Source: Candidatus Desantisbacteria bacterium CG1_02_38_46 (GTDB taxonomy: Bacteria; Desantisbacteria; UBA1551; UBA1559). From it: a DNA stretch of 12,573 nt. The position numbers and the translations under genes are program-made. The stretch is from assembly GCA_001871015.1 (NCBI GenBank), contig MNUO01000012.1:1-12573 (forward strand), read 5' to 3'. Positions within the stretch are counted from its first letter, which is position 1. Each line of letters opens with the position of its first letter. Shown in pieces: positions 1 through 3,013 of the stretch. A model generated the notes under the pieces. It searched no databases and had not been told where the DNA came from. It saw nothing but the letters and a program-made list of their open reading frames with translations.

Positions 1-113
1 TGGCAATGCCAGCGATTTCTCTTTTTACCCTTTTTAGTCTGGAAATTACCCTTGCGCTTTGTGTTTAAGCTTTGACAATTTGGACATCGCAGCCTGTGCT
101 TACATTTACGCAT
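1..113 (-). CDS. 5' end of a zinc-ribbon protein, probably a transposase (partial)
   Basis: An ATG at 113 follows a strong ribosome binding site (AAGGAGG, plus-strand positions 120-126) and opens a frame that runs off the left edge after 37 codons. The visible part is very basic. It has a CPNC pair at residues 10-13, then a lysine/arginine-rich stretch, then RWHC ending at residue 37. That is the first half of a C-x2-C ... C-x2-C zinc ribbon, where the fourth cysteine would lie outside the window. Such ribbons open many IS transposases (IS1 InsA and ISL3 types) and some other small DNA-binding proteins. The upstream palindrome and a possible IS end near 211 favour a transposase. No catalytic domain is visible, so the family is not settled. 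Confidence 0.6.
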   Translation of the reverse strand, partial: MRKCKHRLRCPNCQSLNTKRKGNFQTKKGKKRNRWHC

Positions 114-115
114 TT

Positions 116-178
116 TTAGCCTCCTTGTGAGTATGATATAGGGGATATTTTCCCTTAATTATATCACAAAAAGGCTAA
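116..178 (-). promoter_or_regulatory. Extended -10 promoter and RBS inside a long imperfect palindrome
   Basis: On the minus strand TGATATAAT (plus positions 158-166) is a consensus extended -10 element. No good -35 is visible. It lies in an imperfect inverted repeat with arms TTAGCC/GGCTAA (116-121 with 173-178), TTGTGA/TCACAA (125-130 with 164-169), TATA/TATA (137-140 with 160-163) and GGGA/TCCC (142-145 with 151-154). The ribosome binding site of the downstream gene lies in one arm. A transcript from outside could fold and hide it. A transcript starting at this promoter would lack most of the 5' arm. Control by a repressor at the DNA palindrome is an alternative. Confidence 0.5.
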
Positions 179-189
179 TTTTACGACGA

Positions 190-211
190 GAAAATTAATT
201 TTCAAAGAGCC
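190..211 (-). other. Possible insertion-sequence end
   Basis: Reading the minus strand from 211, the sequence begins GGCTCTTTGAAAATT, which resembles from memory the GGCTCTT ends of ISL3-family elements. It contains a perfect 14-nt palindrome, GAAAATTAATTTTC (190-203). It lies between the methyltransferase gene and the zinc-ribbon gene, where the upstream end of an IS would be expected. The other end is outside the window, so neither the terminal repeat nor a target duplication can be confirmed. Confidence 0.25.
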
Positions 212-245
212 CTTTTGGAACTTATTAGACCCAATTTTCTATACG

Positions 246-1505
246 CTACCCAAATTTTGTCTTATATTTATAATCAAGAACATTATCTGCATAAACCAGA
301 CCATTTTTAATCAGGTGCGCGTTTAAAAAAGTCCTATTCCATAGATAGAGATAGCAAAGTAAATTATTTTTTTCATCATATTTCACATTATCAAATTTCA
401 AAAACACCTTTTGCCCCTGGGTTTTTTCTCTTAAAAAATGAACTGCCTCTTCACTTTTTTCTGGTTTTTCTTTCACTCCCAATAACTTGATTTTTAATCC
501 ATTATTTAAAATCAAAGTTTCCGGGGAAATTATCTCCTTTACACTATAGTATCTTTCTCTTTCGTAATGGACACTATCTATTTTTGAACCAAATCTCAGC
601 TTTTTAATGTCTATTTTTTTGTCGAATTTTATCGGGTCTTTAAAAATATAGGGCAATTTTTTAATTTCTTCTTTAAAGTCTACTTTCGGTTTTTCCTGGC
701 TGATTATTTCAAAATTCGCATCTTGTTGTTTTGCCCCCAATTTTTCTTTTATGACTGGCAAAAAATCTTCATTTACTTCATATCCGATAGAGTTTCTATT
801 CAAATTTTTAGCCACCAGAGAAGTTGTCCCGCTTCCTAAGAATGGGTCAAGCACGGTATCGCCTACAAAACTGAACATTTTAATAAGGCGCCTTGGCAAT
901 TCTTCAGGAAACATTGCGAGATGTTTATCCTGCTTTGCACCAGAAAAATTCCAGTGTCCTATAAAATATTTATTCCATTCTTCCTGTGTTAGTTTTGATT
1001 GTTCTTTAATTTCTCTCGAAACCTTGGGTGGGTCCCCATATTTTTTAAAAATCAAAATAAATTCGTAGTCAAGTTTGATAATTCCGCTCCTTGGATAAGG
1101 AAAAGAACCCATTACTGTCGCACCGCCAGTTGTATGGCAGGTGGTAACCTTCTGCCAGATTATTGCACCCATATAATCAAAACCGGCACTTTCACAGAAT
1201 TTGATTATCTCTGTGCGGATTGGAATAATTTTATATCTCCCATAATAAACAGAGCGAGCAAACTGGTCACCGATGTTAACACATAGACGACACCCCTGAT
1301 ATAAAACTCTATGGCATTCATTCCATACTAAATTGAGATTGTTAATATATTCTTCGTAAGTATCATTAAAACCTATCTGCTTACTATTGCCGTAATCTTT
1401 CAGTTGCCAGTATGGCGGTGAAGTAATAACGAGATGGACCGATTCATCCTGCACTTCTTTCATCCATCTCGAATCCCCAATAATTATTTTATGTAATGTT
1501 TTCAT
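246..1505 (-). CDS. DNA methyltransferase (beta class, SPPY) with C-terminal SNase-like domain
   Basis: The protein is 419 residues from the ATG at 1505. The catalytic motif TSPPY (residues 28-32) precedes the AdoMet-binding motif DPFLGSGTT (220-228). This order defines beta-class amino-methyltransferases, and SPPY usually indicates N4-cytosine methylation, though N6-adenine cannot be excluded. From about residue 321 the C-terminus matches the staphylococcal nuclease (TNase) fold, with the pattern KIKLLGV ... KVFLKFD ... LLCYLYL ... FLNAHLI. By hand alignment the nuclease residues Arg35, Asp40 and Arg87 become Lys340, Lys345 and Asn381, so cleavage is unlikely. The usual final helix is absent and the protein ends at KFG. 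The ATG overlaps the kinase stop as ATGA. A TTG at 1517 has a better-placed GAGG and would add four residues. No restriction enzyme gene is nearby in the window. Confidence 0.85.
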   Translation of the reverse strand: MKTLHKIIIGDSRWMKEVQDESVHLVITSPPYWQLKDYGNSKQIGFNDTYEEYINNLNLVWNECHRVLYQGCRLCVNIGDQFARSVYYGRYKIIPIRTEIIKFCESAGFDYMGAIIWQKVTTCHTTGGATVMGSFPYPRSGIIKLDYEFILIFKKYGDPPKVSREIKEQSKLTQEEWNKYFIGHWNFSGAKQDKHLAMFPEELPRRLIKMFSFVGDTVLDPFLGSGTTSLVAKNLNRNSIGYEVNEDFLPVIKEKLGAKQQDANFEIISQEKPKVDFKEEIKKLPYIFKDPIKFDKKIDIKKLRFGSKIDSVHYERERYYSVKEIISPETLILNNGLKIKLLGVKEKPEKSEEAVHFLREKTQGQKVFLKFDNVKYDEKNNLLCYLYLWNRTFLNAHLIKNGLVYADNVLDYKYKTKFG

Positions 1506-3013
1506 AGTGAACTGCAATGTTCCTCAAATTCACTGATGTATTGCTGAATTAGTTTCTGGTCGATGTCGAGGTTCTTTATCGGTTTCTCGCTGATTTTTAT
1601 CAGGCGAGGGTCGATGTCCTCCGGCTGGATACCCTCTGCAGCACATTTGCCACAGATTGCTGCGCCAAGACTTGTGGCTTCCTGAATATTAGTAGCAACA
1701 ACATTCTGATTAGGAAAAAGGGTAGAAAGAATGTTCAAATAAATCGTGTTGTTTCTGAACCCACCTTCGACATATATCGGAATATTTTGATTTGCCTCGT
1801 GTCCCAGCGCCTGTCTAATTGCAAAATATGATTGTATTGCCAGCGAGAGATTGAGTAAGGTGTAAGCACTTTTTGCATCTCTGAAAAATTCTTCTTTGTT
1901 TATAATTCGCGGTTTAGAATTTGGAAACTGACCAGAACCCTTTGTGAGTGTCGGCGTGACAAAACAGGATTTTGAGTTTATTATTTTCTTTATAAGATTT
2001 TTATCCGGTTTTAATTTGCGCGGCTCAATACTGAATTTTTTCTCTATCATATCGCTATAATGGTCGTGCTCCTGTCCCATTGCAAAGCTTGCTGACCTCG
2101 CCGGACGACCAAATGCATCAATGTAATAGAGGGTGTCTTTTCGCATATCTTCTGGAGAAAGATAAAAAGAACTGCCACCTGTCCGCCTAAGGCGAGACGA
2201 GGTCTGGTGATTAAACATAAAAACTCCCCATGTACCGGTGCTCGCAAGCACGAATTTTCCTTTTTTTGCAAGCAGATATGGAAGAAGAGAAGCATTAGAA
2301 TCATGTATTCCAACTGAAACTCTGCACTCTTCAGGAAGACCTGTGCAATTAGATATATCTGGGTTTATTTTCCCCAGAATATCCCAAGGATTTGAAAATT
2401 TCTTTGGAAACCTTTTAGTAACACCCAATTTTTTAGCAACATCGCTCCAGGATTTCCCGTGGAAGTCATAGAGATATGTGTGACAACCTATACTTGTGAG
2501 TTCAACTGCTTTCTTCCCGGTGAGAACATAACCTTCATACTGCGGTAGAAAAAGTATATCTATGACTTTTTTAAACTCTGCTCTTCTTTTTGTTTTAAGC
2601 CAGAATAATTGCATACCAACACTGAGCAATTGTCCAAAAAGCGGAGTGGCAGTTTTAAGGTAAAGGTCCTGAGCAGAGCCGAGAGTAGAGTAGAACTTCT
2701 TGCGAATTTCCTCGCCCGGTTCGTGCATATAGGAAATCACTGGAAAAACAAGCTCTCCGCTATTTCCAATACAGGCAATCGTGGCTCCATAAGTGGTGGT
2801 AGAAATTACACCAATTCTGTACCGCTTACTGATTGATTTCAGCCTGTCCAGAACCCAGGCGTTCAACTCAGGGATCCTGTCACAGAGAATGCCGTCAATG
2901 AGTGCATCCCGGATCTGCGTTGATTCCTTTGAAATAAACTTTAGGTCACTGGAAAAAATTGCAATTTTTTTGTTGGTCTTGCCAATATCAAAAACAACTA
3001 TGTGGTAATTCAT
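1502..3013 (-). CDS. FGGY-family carbohydrate kinase
   Basis: This 503-residue protein has the full length and motif order of FGGY sugar kinases, which transfer the ATP gamma-phosphate to a sugar or polyol in the cytoplasm. Residues 8-16 (FDIGKTNKK) form the first phosphate loop of the actin-like ATPase fold. GIHDSNAS (235-242) supplies the likely catalytic base Asp238. ASTGTWG (257-263) is the second phosphate loop, and VEGGFRN (415-421) is the adenosine-binding segment. The DIGKTNKK variant is closest to rhamnulokinase/fuculokinase-like members, but the substrate cannot be read from sequence. The ATG at 3013 has no clear Shine-Dalgarno sequence, so translation may depend on the upstream coding. 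The stop overlaps the methyltransferase start. Confidence 0.85.
   Translation of the reverse strand: MNYHIVVFDIGKTNKKIAIFSSDLKFISKESTQIRDALIDGILCDRIPELNAWVLDRLKSISKRYRIGVISTTTYGATIACIGNSGELVFPVISYMHEPGEEIRKKFYSTLGSAQDLYLKTATPLFGQLLSVGMQLFWLKTKRRAEFKKVIDILFLPQYEGYVLTGKKAVELTSIGCHTYLYDFHGKSWSDVAKKLGVTKRFPKKFSNPWDILGKINPDISNCTGLPEECRVSVGIHDSNASLLPYLLAKKGKFVLASTGTWGVFMFNHQTSSRLRRTGGSSFYLSPEDMRKDTLYYIDAFGRPARSASFAMGQEHDHYSDMIEKKFSIEPRKLKPDKNLIKKIINSKSCFVTPTLTKGSGQFPNSKPRIINKEEFFRDAKSAYTLLNLSLAIQSYFAIRQALGHEANQNIPIYVEGGFRNNTIYLNILSTLFPNQNVVATNIQEATSLGAAICGKCAAEGIQPEDIDPRLIKISEKPIKNLDIDQKLIQQYISEFEEHCSSL

Follow-up and report, generated by a model that had tools for sequence, protein, structure and literature searches.

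The fusion gene at positions 246-1505 of the analysed DNA (the window, 12,573 nucleotides of the Candidatus Desantisbacteria bacterium CG1_02_38_46 genome) is the M gene of an ordinary two-gene MjaI-type (RE_MjaI) type II restriction-modification system. It encodes a protective methyltransferase with a C-terminal staphylococcal nuclease (SNase) tail, and we think it probable that this tail was gained once, was disarmed and has since been kept for accessory, sequence-nonspecific DNA binding. The features discussed below are, with the evidence for each in brackets:

246 to 1505, minus strand: methyltransferase-SNase fusion, M gene of an MjaI-type restriction-modification system, 419 amino acids (open reading frame, homologues)
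720 to 1505, minus strand: beta-class N4/N6 DNA methyltransferase domain, residues 1-262 (Pfam N6_N4_Mtase, PDB 2zie, Foldseek 2zig)
552 to 719, minus strand: linker, residues 263-318 (low pLDDT at 293-316, alignment)
249 to 551, minus strand: SNase/OB-fold domain predicted to be catalytically dead, residues about 319-419 (Pfam SNase, model, residues)
1 to 250, minus strand: left end of a repeated insertion-sequence-like element; a zinc-ribbon ORF starts inside it at about 113 and runs downward (copies on other contigs)

The boundaries given for the gene in the original prediction proved correct and the strand is minus, with the ATG at 1505 and the stop codon at 246-248. An intact beta-class methyltransferase had been proposed for the N-terminus, and this was borne out: residues ~1-262 match Pfam N6_N4_Mtase (E 7.4e-44, 150.8 bits against a cut-off of 26.7), and SPPY (motif IV, residues 29-32) precedes DPFLGSGTT (motif I, residues 220-228, with FLGSGTT at 222-228), as is the motif order of the beta class. 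In the PDB the best match of this part is TTHA0409 (2zie, E 7.5e-53), a putative modification methylase of Thermus thermophilus that is also the Foldseek match (2zig) and the closest solved methyltransferase fold, at 34% identity, but whose 297-residue chain has no SNase tail. The protein also matches PADLOC PDLC03259 (MTase_II) over its full length (residues 3-418 aligned to profile positions 2-419 of 423); the family is thus already catalogued as a type II methyltransferase, although the entry is named only ‘Type II methyltransferase’ and leaves the SNase domain unmentioned. The linker between the two domains contains a conserved LRFGSK in the alignment and is partially disordered in the model, where pLDDT is low at residues 293-316. 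The fusion gene is preceded by an apparently intact sugar-kinase-like gene (1502-3013, minus strand), whose stop codon overlaps the ATG of the fusion at 1502-1505.

The staphylococcal nuclease pattern noticed at the C-terminus was upheld both by profile searches and by structure prediction. The tail scores above the curated cut-off of Pfam SNase (25.1 against 21 bits), the same domain is matched at E<=0.01 in 66 of the 67 aligned relatives, and a PDB search with a tail profile brought up staphylococcal nuclease (E about 5e-4). When the tail alone was modelled using AlphaFold2, the mean pLDDT was 89 (92-97 in the folded core), Foldseek matched the model to SNase at E 4e-7, and the model superposed on solved SNases using VIA-align with Z 14.9 and an rmsd of 2.1 Å over 103 residues, rather than adopting a fold outside the OB/SNase class. 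Since Pfam, the relatives, the PDB profile and the AlphaFold2 model all point the same way, the claim of an SNase fold stands, and as far as a predicted structure can do so the model confirms it as a true one. A chance match was ruled out by the structure model together with the matches of the relatives.

While the tail shares the full fold of the staphylococcal nuclease family (PF00565), the residues of an active nuclease (D21, R35, D40, E43 and R87) are gone across the fusion clade. We aligned the tail with five ordinary SNases taken from other genomes; in four of these the catalytic set is complete or almost complete. This revealed that in the window protein D21 is replaced by E, R35 by K, D40 by K, E43 by P, which is not acidic, and R87 by N. 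The earlier hand alignment, which had reported the replacement of R35, D40 and R87 by K, K and N, was right, because the alignment with ordinary SNases gives the same replacements; D21 and E43 are additionally gone. A survey of 110 fusions found the replaced residues consistently lost: at most three of the five catalytic residues survive in any of these proteins, and no homologue has a conserved triad. The position of R35 is R or K in 106 of them, that of D40 is K or R in 98 (with D40 itself kept in one), and that of R87 is N in 78 and R in 8. Judged from these residues, the nuclease site is predicted to be dead here and in essentially all relatives, a loss that appears consistent across the family and not peculiar to the window gene. 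The fold is identical to that of SNase, as it would be in an active one-chain enzyme that modifies with one domain and cuts with the other. Such an enzyme, as the original prediction had considered, is extremely improbable given the missing catalytic residues in all 110 fusions, and it was rejected also because the endonuclease of the relatives, RE_MjaI, is encoded by a gene of its own immediately downstream.

This gene arrangement was surveyed at 80 named loci, in which the fusion and its relatives (67-84% identity) span both bacteria and archaea, with more than 20 phylum-level groups represented according to the record titles. A near-full-length RE_MjaI ORF (at least 185 amino acids) lies downstream of the methyltransferase in 60 of the 80, no more than 100 bp away and on the same strand in 54 and farther than 100 bp away in 6. 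Fragments of RE_MjaI are present at 10 further loci, 4 loci end too soon, 1 has a broken methyltransferase ORF, and 5 have no RE_MjaI despite room for it. The M and R genes of the named loci mostly abut or overlap; at five loci (L082, L088, L103, L127 and L112) an additional 285-1753 bp separates the methyltransferase and endonuclease genes. When the search was reversed, starting from RE_MjaI, an SNase-fused methyltransferase was found to adjoin it in 16 of 19 bacterial genomes, a tally that includes one decayed copy and the partial copy of the Desantisbacteria genome. In the archaeal phylum of locus L050, the SNase is fused, partial or split in 21 of the 30 loci examined, with 5 others having a methyltransferase without SNase and 4 having no methyltransferase in view. 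In the MjaI/BfaI/MthZI-type CTAG systems, too, the endonuclease belongs to this family (RE_MjaI, PF09568); their beta-class m4C methyltransferase agrees with the fusions in class and motif order. The characterised methylases of these systems differ, however, in being too short for the SNase domain borne by the fusion clade: M.MjaI, M.BfaI, M.MthZI and HVO_0794 comprise 303-364 amino acids (PMC5867850).

The window copy itself is an orphaned or separated M gene, with its 3' end cut by the insertion-sequence-like element. The element enters at window position 250 and takes away the variable residues that usually form the C-terminus (‘KFG*’ in place of ‘KFL...’). It leaves both the methyltransferase and the folded core of the SNase intact, and this copy may be active as a methyltransferase. 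A 99% identical copy of the element's left end lies on contig 7, its 27-base terminal stretch recurs on contigs 51, 126 and 38, and left-end matches are found near several contig ends. The 38 visible residues at the start of the zinc-ribbon ORF matched no Pfam transposase family at its cut-off. No RE_MjaI adjoins the window copy: past position 250 comes the element, within which the contig stops. Contigs 58 and 67 are the only ones in the assembly on which RE_MjaI was found. As the genome is 88% complete and the gene may lie in unassembled sequence, this does not prove that it is absent; the missing neighbour therefore lowers only the claim that the window copy is a complete system. On contig 67, a second copy of the fusion, 85% identical (L038, 2542-4114), bears an internal deletion that joins the end of the methyltransferase out of frame to the last half of the endonuclease, which shows that the endonuclease has been deleted there. 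On contig 58, a third copy, a partial methyltransferase, is followed by an intact 210-amino acid ORF that matches Pfam RE_MjaI at E 1.4e-49.

As to the tail's origin, a maximum-likelihood tree built quickly from 131 rows of the methyltransferase part (SH-aLRT supports only, many weak forks) gathers the fused forms into a single 112-row clade with support 97. The fused SNase is kept in 109 of the 112 members, and the three exceptions are nested inside the clade. L046 is bacterial and has an intact endonuclease and no SNase. L130 (3992-4855) sits on a phage-like 147-kb contig without SNase tail or endonuclease, where it possibly serves counter-defence by self-methylation. At L253 (204-2124), methyltransferase, SNase and RE_MjaI form three overlapping ORFs, the SNase in the middle; the fusion may have split naturally here, or a frameshift may account for the pattern. 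The sister rows of the clade, L223 and L133, have no SNase, and the simplest reading of this tree is that the tail was apparently gained once and then lost a few times. A search of phages and plasmids for full-length matches found no place that covers 80% of the protein.

Selection on the tail was estimated from 54 pairs with usable dS, which are not independent of one another; the methyltransferase part has a median dN/dS (omega) of 0.05, against 0.12 in the linker and 0.11 in the SNase. Since omega is about 0.11, the dead SNase is under purifying selection. It is very unlikely that the tail is an inert relic, a fold stabiliser or a passenger, even though it is missing from L046 and L130 and separate in L253: its low omega across the clade and its presence in nearly all members speak against this, and the near-uniform changes of D40 to K or R and of R87 to N resemble repurposing rather than decay. 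The original prediction had also proposed that the lost residues reflect a fold used for DNA or protein binding. A domain that is dead and conserved fits such a use.

Because the cutting residues are gone in essentially every relative, the tail is probably kept to hold DNA, not to cut it. In the scenario we favour, a bacterial SNase domain would have been joined once to the C-terminus in the ancestor of the methyltransferase clade, after which its catalytic site would have been lost and the basic OB-fold retained. By accessory, sequence-nonspecific binding, the tail would then hold the methyltransferase on DNA and raise the efficiency of protection, which would benefit a system that is often transferred from one host to another, unrelated one. 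The tail is indeed basic, with a median net charge of +8 and a pI of about 9.5 among the 110 fusions. Against a role in DNA binding, the conserved tail residues belong mostly to the fold core and mark no obvious binding patch, the known CTAG methylases M.MjaI, M.BfaI, M.MthZI and HVO_0794 manage without a tail, and so does L046 with its intact endonuclease. In beta-class enzymes, the target-recognition region sits within the methyltransferase part, between SPPY and FxGxG. For this reason, and because tail-less CTAG methylases work (PMC5867850) and L046 lacks the tail, the further suggestion that the tail chooses targets found no support.

The tail might instead be a protein-binding platform that touches the cognate MjaI-type endonuclease, to restrain or deliver it. 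The SNase is found almost always in methyltransferases that adjoin RE_MjaI, and of the clade's phage-like copies, the two that were readable throughout (L130 and L132) have neither endonuclease nor SNase. Dead SNase folds also serve as protein-binding scaffolds in the extended Tudor domains of eukaryotes (metazoan Tudor-SN relatives; PMC7641849), in proteins that are unrelated to the fusion and offer an analogy only. We nevertheless regard this platform as unlikely. Two endonuclease subtypes that are only ~25% identical (63 A, 24 B) partner fusions of similar methyltransferase identity, some of them nearly identical. At equal methyltransferase distance, the divergence of the SNase does not track endonuclease subtype (partial correlation of SNase identity with subtype difference 0.06, permutation sd 0.05; limited power). 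L046 has an intact endonuclease without the SNase, and L061, L072, L076 and L125 keep the SNase without an endonuclease. A subtype-specific partnership of SNase and endonuclease thus gave no signal, which weakens the partner role; divergence independent of subtype argues against subtype-specific contact and is easier to square with a constant partner such as DNA.

N-terminal helix-turn-helix extensions autoregulate some other methyltransferases. That the tail does the same for its operon, through its own promoter or mRNA, would suit its basic character and the abutting or overlapping M and R genes, which leave no space for a controller gene between them, but we consider it quite unlikely, as the tail is retained by orphan copies and in hosts that differ widely.

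The fusions show clearly how an enzyme domain can become a non-catalytic module inside a widely transferred defence system: it was apparently gained once, lost its active site and has long been retained by selection. Rather more tentatively, a nuclease captured once and disarmed may now be a DNA-clamping or partner-control module, nearly obligatory in a bacterial-archaeal restriction-modification lineage, and so a new type of accessory domain for DNA methyltransferases. Among open-licence papers we found no description of SNase-methyltransferase fusions, though one may exist elsewhere. The natural tail-less, split and orphan copies make the function of the tail directly testable, and the RE_MjaI systems of uncultured lineages can now be annotated correctly, rather than as methylase-nuclease fusions.

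The target of the methyltransferase is probably CTAG, methylated at N4 of cytosine. CTAG does not occur in the window, where 28 sites are expected from dinucleotide shuffles, and it occurs 13 times in 72.6 kb of the same genome against a Markov estimate of 78 (ratio 0.17, the lowest among palindromic tetramers). The ratio is 0.13 in archaeal RE_MjaI loci, and 0.45 (47/105) in loci of first-survey genomes without the fusion. CTAG is scarce in most prokaryotes generally, and because of this general avoidance its depletion here counts as supporting evidence only. In the window and the 72.6 kb, GATC (0.24 of expected) and GGCC (0.39) are also depleted, hinting at other restriction systems.
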